A stretch of 40,833 bases of DNA, taken from NCBI GenBank assembly GCA_017521145.1, contig JAFXDR010000169.1:1-40833 (forward strand), in the 5' to 3' direction. A program made the translations under genes and the position numbers. Source of the stretch: Akkermansia sp. GTDB lineage: Bacteria; Verrucomicrobiota; Verrucomicrobiia; Verrucomicrobiales; Akkermansiaceae. The notes beneath the pieces were generated by a model. It made no database searches. It saw only the letters and a program-made list of their open reading frames with translations, and was not told where the DNA came from. Positions 1 to 9,928 of this stretch are shown here, piece after piece (the stretch's first letter is position 1; each line of letters begins with the position of its first letter).

Positions 1-192
1 CTGCTCACGGTGCACAAAATCCGCATCCTGGCCACGCGGCGCAATATCTCCAACGTGGAAATCAGCGGGCAGAAACTCATGCTCACCCGCAACAACGACT
101 ATATTCTGGACAACAAGCGCTTCCCCCGCCTCCAGAAAATCCGCCCTCACGATAAGCTCCACGAGGCCCTGCGCTTGCTCCAGAGTATGTGA
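1..192 (+). CDS. mfd: C-terminal end of transcription-repair coupling factor Mfd (partial)
   Basis: The frame is open from the first base of the window and ends at TGA 190-192, so only the last 63 residues are present; the GTG at 10 is internal, not a start. The tail reads as an alternation of short strands and helices (KIRILATRRNI, VEISGQKLMLT, KFPRL-type NKRFPRLQKI, KLHEALRLLQSM). This resembles the C-terminal TRCF/D7 domain of Mfd, the SF2 translocase that removes stalled RNA polymerase and recruits UvrA. The assignment rests on remembered family pattern only, with no catalytic motif in view, so it is moderate. An array of hairpins starts 7 bases after the stop. Confidence 0.55.
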   Translation: MLTVHKIRILATRRNISNVEISGQKLMLTRNNDYILDNKRFPRLQKIRPHDKLHEALRLLQSM

Positions 193-198
193 TAATGT

Positions 199-292
199 CC
201 TGACCGCAGGTCAGGATATCGTTCAGGCCCGCGGCCTGAATATCGTCCATGCGCAGCATGGATATCGTCCGAGCCGCAGGCGAGGATATCGT
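199..292. repeat. Array of four small hairpins joined by the constant heptamer ATATCGT
   Basis: Four consecutive units each hold a short inverted repeat with a 3-base loop followed by ATATCGT. Unit 1 is CCTGACC-GCA-GGTCAGG (199-215), unit 2 TCAGGCC-CGC-GGCCTGA (223-239), unit 3 CCATGC-GCA-GCATGG (247-261), unit 4 CCGAGCC-GCA-GGCGAGG (269-285, two central mismatches). The heptamers lie at 216-222, 240-246, 262-268 and 286-292. Stem sequences differ from unit to unit while pairing is kept. A fifth, wider stem follows: TCCCAAT at 293-299 with ATTGGGA at 327-333. Function unknown; it may end mfd transcription or be a REP-like mobile repeat. Confidence 0.85.
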
Positions 293-331
293 TCCCAATA
301 GAGCAACCCTCCATAATCCCACAACCATTGG

Positions 332-376
332 GAAAACCAACCGCCTCTATCGTGAAAACACGCGCTCCGCGCCTGT
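332..376 (+). repeat. Left copy of a 45-bp dispersed direct repeat
   Basis: The first 28 bases (GAAAACCAACCG, one variable base, CTCTATCGTGAAAAC) match 8707-8734 with a single mismatch, and GCGCCTGT at 369-376 matches 8744-8751 at the same spacing. The 9 bases between differ: this copy has CGCTCCGCG where the other has its reverse complement CGCGGAGCG, shifted by a base or two. Weaker similarity (CCC, GAGCA, ACAACC in the same order) extends about 45 bases upstream. Candidate end of a mobile segment, or a dispersed REP-like element. Confidence 0.7.
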
Positions 377-430
377 GAACCCAAAATTTCCGCACCATCC
401 GGGCGTTTACTGCCTATTTGTCAATCCTTT

Positions 431-1450
431 TCACGCTGCCCAGAATTGGGCAGAGGCGCGCACCCCGCGTTGGTCCACATACCGCGTTCGCAGCAGCGTA
501 GCATCCCGGTGGCCTATTTCCACCTGCAGCTCCGCATAGCTGCGGAAATGGCTCAGATGATAACTCGCAAAGGTATGCCGCAGCGCATCCTGCGGCCAGG
601 GGTGAGCGGGGGAGCCCCACCCCGCTGCGCGGCGCAGCTCCCGCCAGTGCCGCAGCCAGCCCGGCGGGCATATCCTCTCCCCGTCCGCCCGACGGTGCGC
701 CCGCAGAATCCGCAGCAGCGGCTTGTGAATCGTCACCCTCCGCGCACCGCCTGTCTTGCTGTGCTGTGGCAGGATATAAATCGCCCGCGCCCGCAAATCC
801 ACCTGTGCCCAGGTGAGCCTCTCCACCTCATGCGGGCGGATGCCGGCATACAGCATCATCCCCACCGCCGCCGCGCAGCTGCCATCGTGATAAGCCTCTG
901 CCGTCTGCCGCAAGTCCTTAATCTCCTGCGGCGTCAGAATCGGCACCTGCTTCTCCACCACCCGCGGAGCCTCCACCTTTGAAACCGGATTCTCGCTGCA
1001 CCAGCCCCGCTTCACCGCCGTGCCGAATACCCCGCTGAGGATTAAGCGCGCCTTCTGCCGCTGCCGCGGTGTATCAAAGGCCATCTCAATATACCGCGCA
1101 CACTCCTGCGCCGAAATCGCCCGCACCTTCCGCCGCGCCAGCCCCGGACACCGCTTCATGAACCGCCGCGTGAAATACCGGAAATCATACACCGTGCGCA
1201 CCCGCCTCTCCCGCCGCTCCTCCAGCGCGAAGGCGACCGCCTTTTCAAATGACACGGTGCGTTCCTGCTTCTTCAGCTCCTCCACCCCCGCTGCTATGCA
1301 CCGCCTTGCCCTTTTCAGACTCCCGCGTCCGGCAGCCATCGACTCTTTGGCAATTATCGCCACCTCCATCAAGTCCTCCCCGGCACTCTTCAATACTGCC
1401 AGCGCCGCCATTTCTTCTCTTGTCAGTTCTACCTTCATTGCTCGTCGCAT
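431..1450 (-). CDS. Tyrosine recombinase / phage-type integrase
   Basis: A 339-residue site-specific recombinase. Residues 65-160 resemble a SAM-like core-binding domain (YDFRYFTRRF, LILSGVFGTAVKRGW). The catalytic domain shows Arg205 (GIRPHEVERLTW), Lys232 (HSKTGG), Arg291 in DALRHTFASY, His314 (IGHRD) and the nucleophile Tyr324 (TRYVD). The first histidine of the usual HxxR box is Asp288 (DALR); an acidic residue here seems to recur in verrucomicrobial relatives, so activity is likely retained. The start at 1450 has a promoter (TATAAT at 1481-1486, minus) about 30 bases upstream; an alternative ATG lies four codons downstream. It diverges from the giant surface-protein gene, and a 14-bp inverted repeat encloses the shared promoter region. 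It may act on the island ends or on that inverted repeat. Confidence 0.9.
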   Translation of the reverse strand: MRRAMKVELTREEMAALAVLKSAGEDLMEVAIIAKESMAAGRGSLKRARRCIAAGVEELKKQERTVSFEKAVAFALEERRERRVRTVYDFRYFTRRFMKRCPGLARRKVRAISAQECARYIEMAFDTPRQRQKARLILSGVFGTAVKRGWCSENPVSKVEAPRVVEKQVPILTPQEIKDLRQTAEAYHDGSCAAAVGMMLYAGIRPHEVERLTWAQVDLRARAIYILPQHSKTGGARRVTIHKPLLRILRAHRRADGERICPPGWLRHWRELRRAAGWGSPAHPWPQDALRHTFASYHLSHFRSYAELQVEIGHRDATLLRTRYVDQRGVRASAQFWAA

Positions 1451-1463
1451 TTGGAATCCGTAA
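1450..1463 (+). repeat. Left arm of a perfect 14-bp inverted repeat
   Basis: TTTGGAATCCGTAA here is the exact reverse complement of TTACGGATTCCAAA at 1587-1600. The two arms enclose 123 bases (1464-1586) that contain the recombinase promoter and the -35 of the giant-gene promoter. The arm overlaps the last base of the recombinase start codon. Confidence 0.85.
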
Positions 1464-1473
1464 ATAACGGATT
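1455..1473. promoter_or_regulatory. Palindromic operator-like site in the recombinase leader
   Basis: AATCCGT-AAATA-ACGGATT is a perfect 7-bp inverted repeat lying between the predicted transcription start (near 1474) and the start codon (1450) of the recombinase gene. TTTGGAAT is also directly repeated at 1450-1457 and 1473-1480. Placement suggests repression or recombinase binding. Whether it acts as DNA site or RNA hairpin cannot be decided from sequence. Confidence 0.55.
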
Positions 1474-1480
1474 TTGGAAT

Positions 1481-1510
1481 ATTATACCCCCAATGAGTTA
1501 TCCATGTCAG
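1481..1510 (-). promoter_or_regulatory. Promoter of the recombinase gene
   Basis: On the minus strand CTGACA (1505-1510), an 18-bp spacer and TATAAT (1481-1486). The start would be near 1474, giving a leader of about 24 bases. Confidence 0.6.
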
Positions 1511-1581
1511 AACCTTCCGCGTACCTGATGAAAAGCTGTACCCTGTTTTTGATAATTCTTTGATTAAAACAGTTTGTGTGC

Positions 1582-1610
1582 TTGACTTACGGATTCCAAA
1601 AGCGTATTAT
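1582..1610 (+). promoter_or_regulatory. Promoter of the giant surface-protein gene
   Basis: TTGACT (1582-1587), 17-bp spacer, TATTAT (1605-1610). The predicted transcription start near 1617 leaves a leader of about 54 bases before ATG 1671 and excludes the in-frame TTG at 1560. The right arm of the 14-bp inverted repeat covers the last base of the -35 and most of the spacer, so inversion of the enclosed segment would replace the -35. Confidence 0.7.
1587..1600 (-). repeat. Right arm of the perfect 14-bp inverted repeat
   Basis: TTACGGATTCCAAA, the reverse complement of 1450-1463, lies between the -35 and -10 of the giant-gene promoter. Confidence 0.85.
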
Positions 1611-1670
1611 CTGAGGCAGTCTCACAAGAGTTTCCTCCTGATTAAATTCATTTTCTCAATTCTTTTTATC

Positions 1671-4600
1671 ATGAAACTGCATCTCCCTATTTCTCTTTTT
1701 CGTGCTATAATGGCGGTGATTTTGTCCACCCCTGTATTTGTAAATACTCTTGCCTCTGAAGCTGTTACTTTCTATACACAAACAACGATAGCAGACAATA
1801 ACGCCACAGCAGAAATTGAGAACAGCATTCCTTACTATACAAATGGCAAATTGACTTTATACACCCAGCAGGAAAACCCAAGTTATAGCTCATATGAAAA
1901 AATATCATTTGAGAATATTCAACCTAATGCAATAGTAGGGGGAAGAAGCAGCACAATTTCTCTGTCTGCTAATGGCGAGGTTTCTTTTATCGGAAATGGA
2001 ACAGCTGATTATATAGCGGGAGGAATATACGGAGCCACAGGCGGTAGTATTGAGCTGTCAGAGAATGAAAGTATATCTTTCATCGAGAACGTAGGAAAAT
2101 CAGCAGGCGCAATTTGGAAAGGAAGCAATAATACACTTGTGAGCATATGCGACAATGGAAATGTGTTATTCAGTAAAAACAAAGCCATGAATCTGTCTTC
2201 CACAGGGGGGGTTCTGAACGGTGGTGCGATTGACGCAGGCTGTACATTAAATATAAGAAACAATGATAATGTTTTATTTGAGAAAAACTTAAGCAATCTA
2301 CAATCTTTTTATTACCTGCATGCGATTAGCGCCTCGGATAGTACAATGTATGGAGGTAGTGAATTTTCAGCAGGTGAAGGCAAAGTAATTGAATTCAGGG
2401 AAGCGGTACATGTGGGTGGTTCACATAGTGTGGACTGGAATAGAGATTACACCGTAAATGGAGAAACCGTGAAACAAACCGGTGATATTGTTTTTACTGG
2501 CGCTTTCGTAGAAGAAAATTTAAATGAAATGCTGCAGAATGAGGGAGTAGGCCGCTCCGCAAGTACAAAGGAACTTTTATGGTCTCGTTGTTCACTATTC
2601 ATCGGTGAATCCGTTTTACATGGAGGTCGCCTACGAATAGAGGATGGTGCTATTTACCGTGGTCAAGGTATGACTGTAGCGGAAGGTTCAGACGCGACCG
2701 TCCGATTACAGAATGCGGCACTATGCCACGGTGGTTATACCTTAACGTTCAACCCCGGTACCACATTAGAATTACACGGGAATAATGCAATCAGTGGGAC
2801 TGTCGATATGCACTCAGGTAGTAAAATAGTCATTGACGAGGGTATCACTGACATCAACGGGGCTCTATATTTCTTGGGCAATGCCACATTTAATCTCAAT
2901 GGAGATAAAGACAGTTCCAGCAATAATCAGGTTCTCTTATGCGTGGCTAATGAAGTTTATGGATGGAGTAATGTTCAACAAAACATAGCCAGTGGTGGCA
3001 CTTTAACATGGGTGGATGATTTATTGATACTGAATTATGATGCAAATAGCTACAATCGCCATTTTAGAGGGAGTGCTGTGTATAATTCTACGCAATCAAA
3101 TGACTTAATGCTACACCACTATAACAGTGTCGAATTTAATGGTATACGCAACAGCAACTCTGGAGGCGCGCTTACGGATTCATTATACGCATCGGGAAAT
3201 GACAGAGATAACACCTCTCTGAGATATAATGATATCGTAATTTTCAGTGGAAATTCTTCAAGTAGTTCTGATACCTATGCTCAAGGTGGTGCAATCTACG
3301 TAGGTGGTAGCAACAGCACGGGAACCACCATAATATCAGACAATGGTAGTGTAATTTTCGACGCTAATACTGCCAGCAGCTCAGCGTCATGGGCAAATGG
3401 GGGTGCTATTGTTGCTAAAAATTTAACATTAAACAATAATGGTAGCGTGATTTTCAGTGGAAACGTAGTTTCGAGCGACACGAGTTCACCTGCAGGAGGA
3501 GCAATCGCCATTGTCTCGCGCGGCGAGCTAAACATCCGCAACAATGATTCCGTTCTCTTTGAGAAGAATGTGGAGAAATCTGGTAGTACCTATTGCTTGC
3601 GCAGCATCCATACCTTTGGTAACAGTCCTTCTGTGATTTCTCTTTCCTCAGCAGCCGGTAAGAGTATCGAGTTCCGGGATTCAGTGTATATAGGGTCCGG
3701 CACCACAGTTAATCTGAATGCGGATTATACGGATGCGAATGGTGTAGTACACAAGCAGCAGGGCGATATCATCTTTACCGGTAAGTATGCGGAAACGCAC
3801 CTGAACGAGATTCTAGCAGCGGATGAACAAGGGCGCACCGCCACGGCAAAGGAGATACTCAACTCCCGCACAACTTCGGTGGCAGCCATGACGAATCTCT
3901 ACGGAGGTCGGCTGCGCGTGGAGGATGGAGCTATCTACAAGGGATATGGCATCACTGCCCACGAAGGCTCGGCAGCCACGGTGCGGATGAAAGACGCCTC
4001 ACAGGAGCATGTCGGGTATAACATCACCATGAATGCCGGTACTGCGCTGGAATTAGAGGGCAGCAATTCCATAACAGCTGCCAACCTGATAATGCAGGAA
4101 GGAAGCAATCTGCATTTTGCGCTGGGTGAGACGAACAGGGAGAGCGCAGCTCTCACTCTAGATGGCTCGCTCCTGCTAAATGGAGCTGTGAATCTGAGCT
4201 TTGATCTGAACTTTGATGTGACAATTGGTGTGTACAAGTTGGTATCCCTATCCGGCAGTGAACTGTTGGATTGGTCTCAATTAACAGTTGCTGAAGGGAG
4301 TGGAAGTGGCTACAATTTTACCCTGAACAGTGATAAAACCGGCCTGTCTCTTGAGATTTTATGGACGCAAATGGAATTACCCCAAACAGAGGGAGCATTG
4401 ACTCTTTCGGACGTTACATGCGGCCAAATGAATTTAGCGGATACTTATAGCTATGACTCCATATCAGTTACACGTGGGTGCTACAGTCTCGTAGGCAGCG
4501 GCAGTGTGGGGGTGAGCGGGCTGCTTTCCGTTACCGGCGGGGCAGATTTGACGCTGGATGTGGACACCACGGCTATGGTGGTAGAAGTAGGGGATGATTC

Positions 4601-7600
4601 CTCGTTGAGCCTGCAGAAGGGGTTGAATCTGGTATCGCTGATGACGCTGGATGATGAGGAGACGGAGTCCGCCAAGGCGATTTCCGTGGGGCGGAATGCC
4701 GAACTGAGCCTGACGGATGCAGCCCTGCTGGGGCAGGTGGCCACAGCGGATGAGACATCGGCGGTGTACTACCAGACGGAAGCAGGTGATAAGCTGCTGA
4801 AGTTTACTGGCGAGATGGGCAGCGCCGGTCTGAATCTGGCACTGGGAGAGGATGGCAAGACAGTCAGCGCCACGGACAGCGCAGGCTTCACGGGCAACAT
4901 CACCGTGCTTTCCGGTACAACGCTGGTGAATGAAGCGACCTCAACCACCGATGGGGTACCCTTTGGTGATACCTATGCCACAGCTGCAGACAAGACGATA
5001 ACGGTGCAAGGGGGCGCCGCGCTGGATATCAACGGCCGCGAGACATATTACCACCTGGTGCTGGAGAAGGATGCTCTGCTGACCAACAGCGGCACAGACA
5101 CGCACCACGACTGGAAGGGGATTCCAGTGATTGACCTCAGCGGGAATGCCGAGGTGAATGCCGCAGCGCAGATTTGCATGGGGGGTGCAGATCTTGCCAC
5201 GAACACCCTCAACCTGAACGGCAATACCCTTACCAAGACCGGAAGTGCCAATCTGGTGCTGCGGAATACATGCATAAACGAAGGTACACTGGCCGTGAAT
5301 GGGGGCTTGGTGCGGTTCATGGGCAACACCTCTACCGCCGCAGGAACTGGCATACAGGTGAATAATGGCGGCACCCTGTGGATTTCTGAAGGCACGGGCA
5401 ACTACGCCGGCTCACTGGTGTTGAACACGGGGGGACATGTGTATTTGGGCGAAGGTCCCAGTGGTACGCTGGGTGGGGATAACGGAACCAATTCCCAGAC
5501 TATTTCCCTGACGGGGCTGGGTAAGTTGGAGCTGGCCGGTGGCACCATGACCTTCCGTGGAGAAAATTTAAACATGGGCACGGTAGATGTAACGGCAGCC
5601 AGCACGTTGGAACTGTGGGACCAGACGGGCAGCGATAGTGTGGCCACAACGGCGTCCACGATATCCACGTTGAACATGTCAGCCAATCTGAACCTGGCAA
5701 CCACCTGGAAAAGCTCGCTGAATATCGCAAGCCTGACCGGCAGCGGCGAGCTGCTAGTGGGCAGCAGCAAGCAAAAGCACAAGGTATCGGTGCAGGATCT
5801 CAGCGGATTCACAGGCACCTTTGCCATTCGTGGGGCCAATAGCACACTGTCGTTGAATCTGGGTGGAGATGATGAGATGAATGCGGCTCGGGTGACAAAG
5901 GATGATTCGGCAGTGCTGATTCTGGAGGGTAGCGGTACCTATTGCTTCAGTAACCTGGAAAATGTAGCCGCAGCAGCAACTGGCATTTCCGATATTCAGT
6001 TCGGCGATACCTGGAGCGGGAAGATTGCACTGAGAAACAGTACAGCTACCGGCATGGAGCTGGATGATTTTGGCGGCGCCGGCAAGACTATCGTTATCGA
6101 AGGTGTAAGCGGCTGGTTCGCTTACAATCGCACTGTGGAAAGCCACCTGCAACTGGTAGAATCCGGGCTTACCCTGCTGGATACCAGTAAGAAAACATAC
6201 ACCTATACCGGAGGCATCAGCGGCAGTGGCGATTTTACCATCAAGAGCAAGGCAGATAGCACCTACACCGGCACCTATAATTTGAGCGGTGACCTCTCCG
6301 CCTGGGACGGTGCTTTCCGCGTGCAGCAGAGCGAAGATAACACCAATACAGCCCCTGTCAACCTGAACCTCACTGGCGGCGGCACGCTCTTCAGTGGTAC
6401 GGATGGCTGCGGTGTCCTCATGGAACGCACGGGTGAAATGAATGTGACCATCGGCAATGCAGGGACGGCCACTACCATGCAAGGCGACATCAGGAATGTG
6501 GGTGTGACCAATGAAGGAGTAACCACCTATGGCACCGTGAATGTGACCTTGAATAATACTGTGGATGCACAGGGAGATATCATTGCAAGCCGCATCAACG
6601 TGGGCGCGGGTGCCGACATTAATTTCAGCGGTACAGTGCAGGCAAATCAATGGACCGTGGGAGATGATGCCCGCCTGGTTATTGAGAGTGGCAGTAAGGT
6701 ATACCTGAGCGAAGCGGACAATGGAACTCTGAGGGGCGACGTGGGAACTGATGATGTCGGCACCCTGGATTTGACCCGCACGGCTGGAGTGGAACTGGCC
6801 GGCGGCACTTTGTTCTACCGCGGCAAAAATATCACGTTCGGCTCGGTTGACGTGACAGAAGACAGTGTGCTGGAAATCTGGGATCAGACCGGTGTAGATG
6901 GGGTGGCCTCTCATGCCTGTACCATTGACACGCTGAATCTGAATGCCTCGCTGGAGCAGAAAACGACCTGGAAATGCACGCTCGACATAGGCTCACTCAC
7001 CGGTAGCGGACCATTGACCGTGAGCAGCAGGAATGAGAAACACTATGTGACGCTTAACGATGTCAGCGCGTACACTGGTACAGTAAGCATCAGCGGAGCC
7101 AATACAACCTTGACACTGAACATAGTGAAGGATGCCGTTGTAAATGCATCCCTCGTAACGAAGGATAATGCCTCGCATCTGGTGTTGAAAGGCCAGGGCT
7201 CGTACAATATCGGCACCGCTCGAAGTCTGGCCGCAGGCGTGCGTTTTGCCGAGGATTGGAAAGGCAGTGTGCGGCTGACGGGAGCGCTGGCCGGCGAAAC
7301 TCTCAGCGGGCTGAACCAGGAAAGCTCCTGGGTGGAGCTGTTCGGGGTGAGCGGCTACCTGAGCCAGGCCGATGCCGCGGTTGGCGCACAGACATACGGA
7401 ATGAACCTGAAGCTGACGGATGCAGGAGAGACGGCTGCCTGGAATCTGAATGATGGCTGGAATGGAGATGTCCGCACCTTTACTGGTATGGTATGTGGTA
7501 CAGGAACCCTGAACCGCAACCATTACAAGGGGACGGAACAGACTCTGATTTTTGCCGGAGATGTGTCCGGATGGAGCGGTGCTTTGGAACACAATGCTAC

Positions 7601-8474
7601 GTCAGCCACTAATAATGGACAAAAGGTGAAGACGAATGTGACATTCAACGGCTCTTCCGAAATCAACGTGGCGATGCGGACGAATGGAAAGGGTGAGTTG
7701 AATGTGACGCTGGATGACGCAAACCTGGCTGCTGGCAGCAAGGTGACGGTGAATAATGCCGTTTCCGCTACCAATTTCACCGTGACAGAGGGAACTGCTG
7801 CTAAGCTGAATAACACGCTACAAGTATCCGGGGTGGTAGAACTCATGGCCGCAGCGAGCCTGGAACTGGGTGAGGTAGTTTCGCTTTCTGCCGGTGCGGG
7901 CAGCGCACAACTGAACACCGTAAGCCTGAATTCAACCGGAATACGCGGAACCGGAGATGCGTCTTCGCTGACCAATCTGCAGATGCAAAACCTGAGCGGC
8001 AGCTTTGCCGTGGCAGATGTGGCAATGCATGAGGTGGAGATAAGCGGCAGCAATTCCGCGCTGACTCTCAGCAACGTGAGTCTGGATGATTCCTGTACTA
8101 TTGACCTTGGGTCAGCAGGAACGGTTACCTTTGATAATTCGACCCTGTGTCTCACGGTGCCGGAGTTGTCATGGGATGGTTCAGAGGTATTGTATATCGA
8201 CTGCTCTGCCTTGTTGACCGGCAATGCCCTTGGCAACCTGTTGATTGATTTGAACCATTCCGTTGACGAAATAGTAAACCTGGGCTACCAGACAGTGGCC
8301 GTTGATTTCGGGGCAAATGTGAATACTACTAACCTGAACCTGAATCTTTCCCAAGCGCAATTCACAGGTTTTATGGGTAGCATTGCCCAGTTTAATCTGG
8401 TTCCCGAACCTGCTACGGCAACATTGGGACTTAGCGCTCTTTTGCTGCTGTGCGCCCGCCGCAGGAGAAAATAA
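1671..8474 (+). CDS. Giant Pmp/autotransporter-like surface protein with PEP-CTERM-type tail
   Basis: 2267 residues from ATG 1671, the first start downstream of the promoter; it opens with a signal peptide (MKLHLPISLFRAIMAVILS, cleavage near TLASEA). The N-terminal third has repeated GGAI/GGAL and VIFSGN, VIFDAN, VLFEKN motifs, the GGA(I/L/V)-FxxN pair typical of chlamydial polymorphic membrane proteins. The rest is beta-helix-like, resembling autotransporter-associated beta-strand repeats. Two large segments are duplicated: about 2260-2830 with 3530-4110 (each with FTG, GGRLR-EDGAIY-G and TLEL/ALEL steps), and about 5400-6320 with 6690-7600 (each with ELAGGT-RG-N and VSGWF/VSGYL steps). The C-terminus VPEPATATLG, hydrophobic stretch, CARRRRK is a PEP-CTERM/exosortase-type sorting signal; there is no autotransporter barrel. 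G+C rises along the gene (22/60 at 1801-1860, 41/60 at 7261-7320). Likely an exposed adhesin or fibre protein; ligand unknown. Confidence 0.85.
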   Translation: MKLHLPISLFRAIMAVILSTPVFVNTLASEAVTFYTQTTIADNNATAEIENSIPYYTNGKLTLYTQQENPSYSSYEKISFENIQPNAIVGGRSSTISLSANGEVSFIGNGTADYIAGGIYGATGGSIELSENESISFIENVGKSAGAIWKGSNNTLVSICDNGNVLFSKNKAMNLSSTGGVLNGGAIDAGCTLNIRNNDNVLFEKNLSNLQSFYYLHAISASDSTMYGGSEFSAGEGKVIEFREAVHVGGSHSVDWNRDYTVNGETVKQTGDIVFTGAFVEENLNEMLQNEGVGRSASTKELLWSRCSLFIGESVLHGGRLRIEDGAIYRGQGMTVAEGSDATVRLQNAALCHGGYTLTFNPGTTLELHGNNAISGTVDMHSGSKIVIDEGITDINGALYFLGNATFNLNGDKDSSSNNQVLLCVANEVYGWSNVQQNIASGGTLTWVDDLLILNYDANSYNRHFRGSAVYNSTQSNDLMLHHYNSVEFNGIRNSNSGGALTDSLYASGNDRDNTSLRYNDIVIFSGNSSSSSDTYAQGGAIYVGGSNSTGTTIISDNGSVIFDANTASSSASWANGGAIVAKNLTLNNNGSVIFSGNVVSSDTSSPAGGAIAIVSRGELNIRNNDSVLFEKNVEKSGSTYCLRSIHTFGNSPSVISLSSAAGKSIEFRDSVYIGSGTTVNLNADYTDANGVVHKQQGDIIFTGKYAETHLNEILAADEQGRTATAKEILNSRTTSVAAMTNLYGGRLRVEDGAIYKGYGITAHEGSAATVRMKDASQEHVGYNITMNAGTALELEGSNSITAANLIMQEGSNLHFALGETNRESAALTLDGSLLLNGAVNLSFDLNFDVTIGVYKLVSLSGSELLDWSQLTVAEGSGSGYNFTLNSDKTGLSLEILWTQMELPQTEGALTLSDVTCGQMNLADTYSYDSISVTRGCYSLVGSGSVGVSGLLSVTGGADLTLDVDTTAMVVEVGDDSSLSLQKGLNLVSLMTLDDEETESAKAISVGRNAELSLTDAALLGQVATADETSAVYYQTEAGDKLLKFTGEMGSAGLNLALGEDGKTVSATDSAGFTGNITVLSGTTLVNEATSTTDGVPFGDTYATAADKTITVQGGAALDINGRETYYHLVLEKDALLTNSGTDTHHDWKGIPVIDLSGNAEVNAAAQICMGGADLATNTLNLNGNTLTKTGSANLVLRNTCINEGTLAVNGGLVRFMGNTSTAAGTGIQVNNGGTLWISEGTGNYAGSLVLNTGGHVYLGEGPSGTLGGDNGTNSQTISLTGLGKLELAGGTMTFRGENLNMGTVDVTAASTLELWDQTGSDSVATTASTISTLNMSANLNLATTWKSSLNIASLTGSGELLVGSSKQKHKVSVQDLSGFTGTFAIRGANSTLSLNLGGDDEMNAARVTKDDSAVLILEGSGTYCFSNLENVAAAATGISDIQFGDTWSGKIALRNSTATGMELDDFGGAGKTIVIEGVSGWFAYNRTVESHLQLVESGLTLLDTSKKTYTYTGGISGSGDFTIKSKADSTYTGTYNLSGDLSAWDGAFRVQQSEDNTNTAPVNLNLTGGGTLFSGTDGCGVLMERTGEMNVTIGNAGTATTMQGDIRNVGVTNEGVTTYGTVNVTLNNTVDAQGDIIASRINVGAGADINFSGTVQANQWTVGDDARLVIESGSKVYLSEADNGTLRGDVGTDDVGTLDLTRTAGVELAGGTLFYRGKNITFGSVDVTEDSVLEIWDQTGVDGVASHACTIDTLNLNASLEQKTTWKCTLDIGSLTGSGPLTVSSRNEKHYVTLNDVSAYTGTVSISGANTTLTLNIVKDAVVNASLVTKDNASHLVLKGQGSYNIGTARSLAAGVRFAEDWKGSVRLTGALAGETLSGLNQESSWVELFGVSGYLSQADAAVGAQTYGMNLKLTDAGETAAWNLNDGWNGDVRTFTGMVCGTGTLNRNHYKGTEQTLIFAGDVSGWSGALEHNATSATNNGQKVKTNVTFNGSSEINVAMRTNGKGELNVTLDDANLAAGSKVTVNNAVSATNFTVTEGTAAKLNNTLQVSGVVELMAAASLELGEVVSLSAGAGSAQLNTVSLNSTGIRGTGDASSLTNLQMQNLSGSFAVADVAMHEVEISGSNSALTLSNVSLDDSCTIDLGSAGTVTFDNSTLCLTVPELSWDGSEVLYIDCSALLTGNALGNLLIDLNHSVDEIVNLGYQTVAVDFGANVNTTNLNLNLSQAQFTGFMGSIAQFNLVPEPATATLGLSALLLLCARRRRK

Positions 8475-8503
8475 GCCTGAAATTACGGCAGCGGCTAAGA
8501 CTT

Positions 8504-8536
8504 CAGCCCCTGATTCCGGAAAGGAATCAGGGGCTG
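8504..8536 (+). terminator. Terminator of the giant surface-protein gene
   Basis: A perfect 14-bp stem, CAGCCCCTGATTCC (8504-8517) with GGAATCAGGGGCTG (8523-8536), loop GGAAA, followed by only TTTCG. It lies 30 bases after the stop. The T-tract is poor, so efficiency is uncertain. Confidence 0.7.
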
Positions 8537-8706
8537 TTTCGTAGTTCGTTCACCGTCAATACCAATTTGCAAAAACCCAAGGTTAACCACGCCTCCGCTG
8601 TTCATCCGGAGCAGCCGGATATCGCTTGCGTGGCCATTGCTGCCGGAAGGCAGAGGCGGCTGAGTATCCCCCATGGAGCAGTCTTCCACAACCTGGCGGG
8701 CATGAA

Positions 8707-8751
8707 GAAAACCAACCGTCTCTATCGTGAAAACTCACGCGGAGCGCCTGT
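8707..8751 (+). repeat. Right copy of the 45-bp dispersed direct repeat
   Basis: Same orientation and internal spacing as 332-376: 27 of the first 28 bases match, then a 9-base segment that differs, then GCGCCTGT. Confidence 0.7.
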
Positions 8752-8827
8752 TTGACTACCTGACAGGCAATGGCGGTGAGCACTGGGACGCCGCAAGGAT
8801 CTGCCCTTGCCGTGAGCCGCCGGAGGC

Positions 8828-9928
8828 TCAATACACGCGGGGAAGACGCGGGCCCAGACCGGTAAAGATTTCCCAGACAATGGTGCCGGCTTTCTCTGCC
8901 ACTTCTGTCACGGGAATGTGGGAACCGAACAGCTCCACTTCATCGCCGGATTGCACACCAGGTACCTCCGTGACATCGGCCATGATCTGATCCATCGTCA
9001 CACGCCCCAGCATGGGGCAATACTGGCCGTTGATATAGACACGCGCGCCCTTATTGGAAATCTGACGGTTCCAGCCATCGGCATAGCCGATACCGATAGT
9101 CGCCACGCGGGTGGGACGATTGGTGATATGGGTGCGGCCGTAGGAAACCCCGTGCCCCGTGGGCAGCTCGCGCACCAGGGTCACGCGGGCATGCAGGCTG
9201 AGCGTGGTGCGCAGCACACCATCGTATATCGAAGCCATGGGAGCCACCCCATACAGCAACAGCCCCGGGCGCGCCAGATTTGCCACAGGCACCTCATAAC
9301 CCAGTTCCCCGGCACTGGCGGCAATGTGGCGGTAGCGCAGGTCAAAATGCTGCTGCAACGTGCCGGCGCAATCCGCAAAAAGCCCGATTTCATTCTGCGT
9401 GAAGGGCACATCCTCATCTGCCGAGGGGAAGTGGGACATGATGCCCTCTATCCGCAGATTGGGCATATTCTTCAACTGTGCAGCGGCCTCACCCAGCTGG
9501 TCGGGCAGGAAACCCTCGCGCCCCATGCCGGTATCCACCGCCACATGCAAGGCAAATTCCTTATCCAGAGCAGCCGCCAGGCTCTGGAAGTGGGCGGCTT
9601 CCTCCACCGTGGAGATGGTGCAGCACCAGTTATTCTGCACAATTTCCTCACGCTCTTCCGGGAAAGTAGGCCCCAGGATGAACGGGGTAGTGCGCACCCC
9701 GGCGCGCAGCAGACGGCGGGCCTCACCCACATTCGCCACGCCGAAGAACGAAATTCCATGATTATCGAGCCGGCGTGCCACCGGCTCCAGGCCGTGACCG
9801 TAAGCCCCGGCCTTGATAACCGGCATGAGCTCCGTATCCGGCAAAGCCTGACGGGCGATATCCAGATTATGGGCGATGGCTTCCAGATTCACACAGGCCC
9901 ACGCGCGCGCTGCACTCTCACTGCTCAT
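8828..9928 (-). CDS. alr: Alanine racemase
   Basis: Pyridoxal-phosphate enzyme that interconverts L- and D-alanine for peptidoglycan. The 366-residue product from ATG 9928 has the PLP lysine Lys39 (VIKAGAYGHG; most relatives have Asn where Gly41 is), the catalytic tyrosine Tyr263 (GVSYGRTH) and Tyr282 in GIGYADGW, close to the numbering of the Geobacillus enzyme (39, 265, 284). MLGRVTMDQ is the usual C-terminal-domain motif. The frame extends 36 codons upstream, but that part is unlike Alr and crosses the promoter at 9936-9964, so ATG 9928 is chosen. Length is normal. Confidence 0.95.
   Translation of the reverse strand: MSSESAARAWACVNLEAIAHNLDIARQALPDTELMPVIKAGAYGHGLEPVARRLDNHGISFFGVANVGEARRLLRAGVRTTPFILGPTFPEEREEIVQNNWCCTISTVEEAAHFQSLAAALDKEFALHVAVDTGMGREGFLPDQLGEAAAQLKNMPNLRIEGIMSHFPSADEDVPFTQNEIGLFADCAGTLQQHFDLRYRHIAASAGELGYEVPVANLARPGLLLYGVAPMASIYDGVLRTTLSLHARVTLVRELPTGHGVSYGRTHITNRPTRVATIGIGYADGWNRQISNKGARVYINGQYCPMLGRVTMDQIMADVTEVPGVQSGDEVELFGSHIPVTEVAEKAGTIVWEIFTGLGPRLPRVY

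Follow-up and report, generated by a model that had tools for sequence, protein, structure and literature searches.

Hairpin-ended S23p elements: small, apparently mobile DNA elements of gut Akkermansia

The hairpin array and its surroundings in the window

The window, that is, the whole stretch of 40,833 nucleotides analysed here (contig JAFXDR010000169.1 of an Akkermansia sp. assembly), carries at 198-291 an array of four hairpins, which read TCCTGACC-gca-GGTCAGGA, TTCAGGCC-cgc-GGCCTGAA, TCCATGC-gca-GCATGGA and TCCGAGCC-gca-GGCGAGGA in this order (Table 1). Each unit is built as T-stem-loop-stem-A and is followed by TATCG and then by the T of the next stem. A preliminary description of this DNA had pointed to a fixed heptamer ATATCGT between the hairpins; the linker is constant indeed, but what is constant is TATCG, to which the outer A and T of the adjoining stems had been added. 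The loop length of three given there holds for all four units, while the statement that four units keep pairing is slightly overstated, as units 1 to 3 are perfect but unit 4 has two central mismatches. This imperfect unit recurs at the orthologous place in another genome (locus L122).

The array is not a product of chance, because it stands out in both resampling and folding. Three hairpins with a stem of at least 7 and a loop of 3-5 lie directly before TATCG on the plus strand of the window, against a single such combination in total over 200 first-order Markov resamples of it, and DNA folding of 197-293 gives -24.9 kcal/mol, against -15.0 +/- 2.4 kcal/mol for shuffled sequences (z -4.15, with none of 200 shuffles as low).

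Regarding its context, the array forms the left terminus of an element that is short and degenerate (197-378) and belongs to an asymmetric subtype where the TATCG array is followed by a core with an inner repeat and by a right end made of GTGAAAA repeats. The inner repeat TTCCCAAT/ATTGGGAA was also found at two other loci (L132 and L109), and the GTGAAAA right end is longer and fuller in L132, L133 and L122 than in the window. Since L122, which belongs to the SIG71 MAG, has this array at the corresponding position and a like array is found in G005:C69, the window element is probably an old insertion. The recurrence of a similar hairpin at 8604-8620, noticed earlier, is real: the hairpin with its linker occupies 8605-8624, reads TCCGGAGCAGCCGGA-TATCG, and belongs to a second copy of the element, itself degenerate, in which 8707-8751 matches 333-377 at 87%. 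Just beyond the first copy lies a tyrosine recombinase gene on the minus strand (PF00589, 431-1450), and 1560-8474 encodes a 2304-aa protein with a C-terminal PEP-CTERM-like motif scoring below the cut-off. No evidence was found that this recombinase acts on the array, and an Rfam search of positions 1-9000 of the window gave no match, rRNA included.

Table 1. Coordinates of the hairpin array, the short element and its second copy in the window
Feature	Position	Strand	Basis
Hairpin unit 1, 8-bp stem, loop GCA	198-216	+	Direct reading, resampling
Linker TATCG	217-221	+	Direct reading
Hairpin unit 2, 8-bp stem, loop CGC	222-240	+	Direct reading, resampling
Linker TATCG	241-245	+	Direct reading
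Hairpin unit 3, 7-bp stem, loop GCA	246-262	+	Direct reading, resampling
Linker TATCG	263-267	+	Direct reading
Hairpin unit 4, imperfect stem with two central mismatches, loop GCA	268-286	+	Direct reading, folding
Linker TATCG	287-291	+	Direct reading
Whole short element: left array, core, GTGAAAA-type right end, truncated relative to its relatives	197-378	+	Orthologous copy in L122
Core between inner inverted repeats TTCCCAAT (292-299) and ATTGGGAA (327-334)	292-334	+	Direct reading
Right end: GTGAAAA repeat, then CACGCGCTCCGCGCCTGTGA (imperfect palindrome)	352-378	+	Direct reading, copy comparison
Second, degenerate element copy: hairpin and TATCG (8605-8624), GTGAAAA right part (8707-8751)	8605-8755	+	Similarity

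Full and short forms of the element and their dispersal

DNA and pattern searches in the home genome (G000; 2.03 Mb in 204 contigs, 84.7% complete) revealed more arrays, among others on contigs C40, C54, C137, C194 and C203. At C40, C137, C194 and C203 the layout is a paired one, in which four units are followed by a core and then by four units in inverted orientation; the cores of C40 and C194 are about 475 bp long and hold a 113-aa ORF, while those of C137 and C203 are about 70 bp long and have no ORF of the TIGR02436/PF05635 family. The full form of the element consists of four hairpins with a family-specific linker, a core of about 475 bp with one four-helix-bundle gene, and four inverted hairpins, and the short forms keep these ends around a core of 68-74 bp in a MITE-like manner.

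In all, 134 distinct TATCG arrays of at least three units were collected from the DNA sampled from the home genome and its close relatives, of which 118 have exactly four units. They use 187 distinct unit sequences, which bears out the earlier view that the structure is kept while the stems vary. All 118 four-unit arrays have G directly ahead of unit 1; farther upstream, position -3 favours A (0.70) and position -5 a pyrimidine (0.87). Thirty-six array pairs are symmetric; their core measures 68-74 bp in 18 and mostly 468-502 bp among the remainder, where the exceptions are longer cores or come from mispairing within tandem runs. Short elements also stand in direct tandem runs at a spacing of about 170-215 bp (L097, L132, L143 and L169). 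When 84,980 species genomes were scanned for a pair of adjoining TATCG units, most matches fell in Akkermansia MAGs from ruminant and deer gut, which have many copies, and scattered single matches in other phyla are taken as mostly chance. The preliminary description had named a lack of further copies, or copies that are simple duplications, as speaking against its reading; copies abound, and their stems are not identical.

The loops are mostly triloops, and those of GNA type, when read inward, make up 72 of 111 at the left end and 73 of 116 at the right end, with no TNC at all. In DNA, d(GNA) triloops closed by C-G are unusually stable. With GNA facing inward at both ends, one and the same transcript would have GNA loops in one array and UNC loops in the opposite array, and the symmetry therefore favours recognition of a DNA strand over that of RNA; it could also be inherited by copying one end from the other.

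Among 43 pairs of near-identical arrays, 33 have unrelated upstream DNA, and homology sets in with the G that precedes unit 1. Dispersal is supported by this, although some of the pairs are close neighbours and some are local tandem copies. The REP-like mobile repeat proposed earlier stands as far as a mobile-type repeat is concerned, but its link with a Y1 transposase fails, as set out below. Neither a target-site duplication nor a clean before/after pair was found, and two candidate sites carry solo hairpins. One is the C194 site, which lies between genes presumed from their translations to be DJ-1-like and TM2-like: in two other genomes (G020:C108, L336; G017:C126, L337) it holds a single hairpin, TAAG-TCCGGGC-acca-GCCCGGA-CTTA, between convergent genes. 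The other is the C40 site, with a degenerate single hairpin in G010. Such solo hairpins are either remnants of recombination between outermost units or hairpins predating the insertion, and a solo hairpin where the element is missing may be a terminator that was already there. In G011 and G035 (L223, L231) the gene at the C194 site runs in the opposite direction to that of the home genome (L186), possibly by inversion between the ends or by a second insertion. Arrays often start just after stop codons. Different species retain them at orthologous places, and movement may thus be slow or have ended.

Proteins, linkers and the exchange of hairpin units

The protein encoded in the C40 and C194 cores matches TIGR02436 "four helix bundle protein" (E 3.7e-28) and PF05635 23S_rRNA_IVP (S23p; E 7.8e-24), and the two copies lie well above the curated cut-offs, with 97.9 and 93.8 bits against 24 for TIGR02436 and 84.4 and 78.7 against 33.8 for PF05635. 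Both elements sit between protein-coding ORFs, outside 23S rRNA genes. To our knowledge, the four-helix-bundle proteins of the S23p/IVP family are widespread, lack an assigned function and had been described mainly as orphan ORFs within rRNA intervening sequences; nor do we know of any catalytic activity for this protein. Its PDB relatives are 2rld (E 1.8e-22) and 2gsc (E 0.25), with five chains each, and the Xanthomonas relative 2gsc is described as a homopentameric toroid (PMC4990558). By homology, the Akkermansia protein may be expected to form a pentameric ring as well.

Of 97 relatives, 79 have TIGR02436 genes, and the home genome has 15 copies. Just under 100 of these genes were examined with their flanks: inverted paired arrays surround most sampled genes of what we call the hairpin clade, with linkers that differ between them (TATCG, TTTCG, ATTTCAC/ATATCAC, TCTTCAC/TCTTCAT, TTTTCAC, ACTTATC/AATTCTC and others). 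A maximum-likelihood tree of 96 proteins places every protein labelled as hairpin-flanked in a single clade of 48 (97/94). The six linker classes, whose labels were assigned by the analyst from the flanks and of which GTGAAAR is the least uniform, need 5 changes on this tree, which is the minimum, compared with a mean of 24.4 after shuffling (none of 200 as low); near-copies inflate this clustering, and several classes hold well-separated proteins. A first tree, built without the last loci, gave 5 changes with a minimum of 4 and a shuffled value of 14.2. Genes of other four-helix-bundle clades (L195, L197, L204, L213, L232) are bordered, at one flank or at both, by long runs of a plain short repeat (CTCTCCA, ATTCGTA or GAGGTAA), sometimes inverted between the flanks. 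A de novo linker search at the best four-helix-bundle loci of other genera, a small sample, found no arrays.

If the protein acts on the ends, copies without a gene should carry the linker of the protein of that genome. Genome-wide counts were made with a triple-linker pattern, which is already specific. The triple-TATCG pattern gives 14-125 matches in 8 of 76 genomes, and at least 14 matches of either TATCG or TTTCG are reached in 8 + 2 of them. A protein at least 70% identical to that of C194 is present in nine of these ten array-rich genomes (G000, G037, G010, G005, G101, G017, G043, G035 and G011) and in none of the 66 others; the exception is G020 (81% complete), array-rich without a matching gene. 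G035 and G011, where TTTCG surrounds the gene, have 15 and 16 TTTCG matches and 1 and 0 TATCG matches, the next highest genome having 5 for TTTCG. A few degraded TTTCG arrays are also present in G034 and G009 without a matching protein, and are probably relics. For GTGAWAT, arrays are abundant in five genomes (G057, G022, G017, G007 and G029), four of which have a gene with matching flanks, G007 (84% complete) being the one without, in a test that is weaker as the proteins of these genomes were fetched only in part. Spacer and protein change in step in these sequences, which is what one would predict of a protein that acts on the spacer.

How the stems themselves change was followed by comparing units between arrays whose cores are at least 85% similar, the pairs not being independent. 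In total 275 unit pairs are identical, 58 differ in the loop only, and 64 are replacements of the whole unit in which both versions pair; the other stem differences comprise 39 pairing-breaking positions, 4 compensatory ones and 53 indels or other changes. Changed stems with kept pairing are mainly the result of module exchange, with occasional compensatory change. Compensatory evolution, the source of stem variety implied at first by the array, is not borne out, as whole-unit replacement dominates by 64 to 4, and compensatory point mutation as the main source was rejected with 4 cases set against 39 pairing-breaking positions together with those replacements. A clean compensatory case is unit 4 of C194, which reads CCTGTC..GACAGG in one array of the pair and CCCGTC..GACGGG in the opposite one. 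In near-identical copies such as the tandem ones at L143, TCCATGC hairpins are exchanged for TCCAATCC hairpins, or TCCCGGGC is swapped with TCCGGCGC. At L143 one unit is swapped between neighbouring tandem elements. The exchange plausibly takes place at the common junction GGA-TATCG-TCC.

Interpretation and comparison with known systems

We consider it fairly likely that gut Akkermansia harbour a family of small DNA elements that appear to be mobile, namely the hairpin-ended S23p elements and their MITEs, with the arrays as their termini and a protein that pairs the ends. The ring-forming protein would bind the linker/hairpin arrays as single-stranded DNA, e.g. behind the replication fork, and would read the structure plus the linker while ignoring the stem sequence. 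It would then join the two ends, and the element would be copied or moved by host replication or repair enzymes or by a nuclease in trans, which is the weakest step of the scheme. As the stems would not be read and most units share the same junction, recombination or template switching at the linkers could swap whole units like modules. Moreover, every unit is a palindrome, and therefore the outermost units of both ends are also direct repeats, between which recombination would leave a solo hairpin.

Among other readings, REP/REPIN-like elements moved in trans by a Y1 transposase (RAYT), with the four-helix-bundle gene as a passenger or accessory, seem unlikely to us. Y1 genes are found in 37 of the 59 genus genomes, three of them in the home genome, and their loci (L271-L290) also have several inverted hairpins per side with variable stems and often GNA loops. 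However, the flanks of these hairpins are constant and different (e.g. GGAG-stem-GTGACAG), and Akkermansia Y1 hairpins are a REP-like family of their own; the linkers described above track the four-helix-bundle protein; and no Y1 match was found in five genomes that carry four-helix-bundle genes (G006, G009, G029, G040 and G054). The linked Y1 transposase suggested earlier was rejected on these grounds, with one exception: at L286 (G037:C44, about 1150-2300) a Y1 gene with its own hairpins lies inside outer arrays joined by ATTTCGA/TCGAAAT, the only such case seen. Nor did the idea of an attC-like substrate of the neighbouring recombinase hold, since the arrays stand at many loci without this recombinase and flank a four-helix-bundle gene instead, and inspection of the ORFs on either side of the C40 and C194 elements showed other genes; of the proposal of single-stranded DNA, it is the plausibility of such a state for the hairpin units that is left.

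Quite unlikely, too, is an element working at the RNA level, whose arrays would fold in the transcript, be bound there by the protein, and spread maybe via a reverse transcriptase. The protein family is shared with rRNA intervening sequences, which are processed from RNA, the protein has kinship with Avd, and arrays often begin just past stop codons, but the inward GNA at both ends would give one transcript both GNA and UNC, and Rfam had no match in window positions 1-9000. In addition, RVT_1 matches were confined to 13 of the 59 genus genomes; the other 46 gave none, and neither did the home genome (84.7% complete). A reverse transcriptase as the mover was rejected because most genomes gave no match. 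Very improbable, finally, are host-useful bidirectional terminators or mRNA 3'-end stabilisers spread by recombination, which the protein genes use or beside which they inserted: the location between convergent genes and the solo hairpins at the C194 site would fit, yet the fixed number four, the inverted pairing around a core, the family-specific linkers and their co-inheritance with the protein are left unexplained. An effect of the arrays on mRNA 3' ends may exist as a side effect. No consistent association with the arrays was seen for Y1 transposase, for reverse transcriptase or for the tyrosine recombinase beside the window array.

Returning to small DNA elements whose ends are paired by the S23p protein, a wider proposal, which we regard as possible though somewhat doubtful, is that they represent a new mobile class without a recognised transposase, recombinase or reverse transcriptase. 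In this class, a ring-shaped four-helix-bundle protein would recognise paired four-hairpin arrays of single-stranded DNA by linker and structure only, the ends would be rebuilt from interchangeable modules, and rRNA intervening sequences would be a special case. A large S23p/IVP clade is tied to specific DNA ends that change with the protein, which is expected of a protein and its target site, and the old proposal that the ORF of intervening sequences (IVS) serves mobility becomes testable. The elements also show a terminus of exchangeable hairpin modules, in which structure and linker are kept while the stem sequence is free. In the literature searched, most subscription papers lying outside its coverage, no prior description of hairpin arrays around this protein family was found.

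Avd of the diversity-generating retroelements is a small helical protein family related to that of the core protein; of the traits of those retroelements, a reverse transcriptase was not found in the home genome and no template/variable repeat was seen. Integron attC sites are similar in being arrays of variable-stem hairpins presumed to act as single-stranded DNA, but here there are no cassettes between the hairpins and no association with an integron integrase. Like MITEs, the short forms have a short non-coding core, inverted ends, dispersed copies and sharp boundaries; unlike MITEs, their ends are conserved in structure and linker instead of sequence, the two ends often carry different units, and there is no known transposase.

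Closer are two other systems. The 23S rRNA IVS with an S23p ORF, known in Leptospira and Coxiella, shares the protein family, small size and inverted ends. That of Coxiella has tandem heptamer repeats GACAGAT before its ORF, which the plain repeats of the other four-helix-bundle clades resemble, and has been termed a selfish element (PMC4990558); the ORF product was proposed there to make the IVS mobile, with reference to Ralph and McClelland 1993. The Akkermansia element differs from it in that the copies examined lie outside rRNA genes, the ends consist of four hairpins, short forms without a gene are many, and linker and protein change together. REPINs and GTAG REP sequences with their RAYT have inverted palindrome pairs, a repeat-flanked gene, non-autonomous short copies, and variable stems with a conserved tag (PMC3733652). 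The Akkermansia element is like them in its inverted palindromes, flanked gene, non-autonomous copies and variable stems, and unlike them in having four units per end, a linker of 5-8 nt, no GTAG/CGTC tag, and a four-helix bundle instead of Y1. Being outside rRNA and without Y1 and GTAG, it is a member of neither system, and the best reading is that hairpin-ended S23p elements are related to, yet distinct from, both rRNA IVS and REPIN/RAYT.
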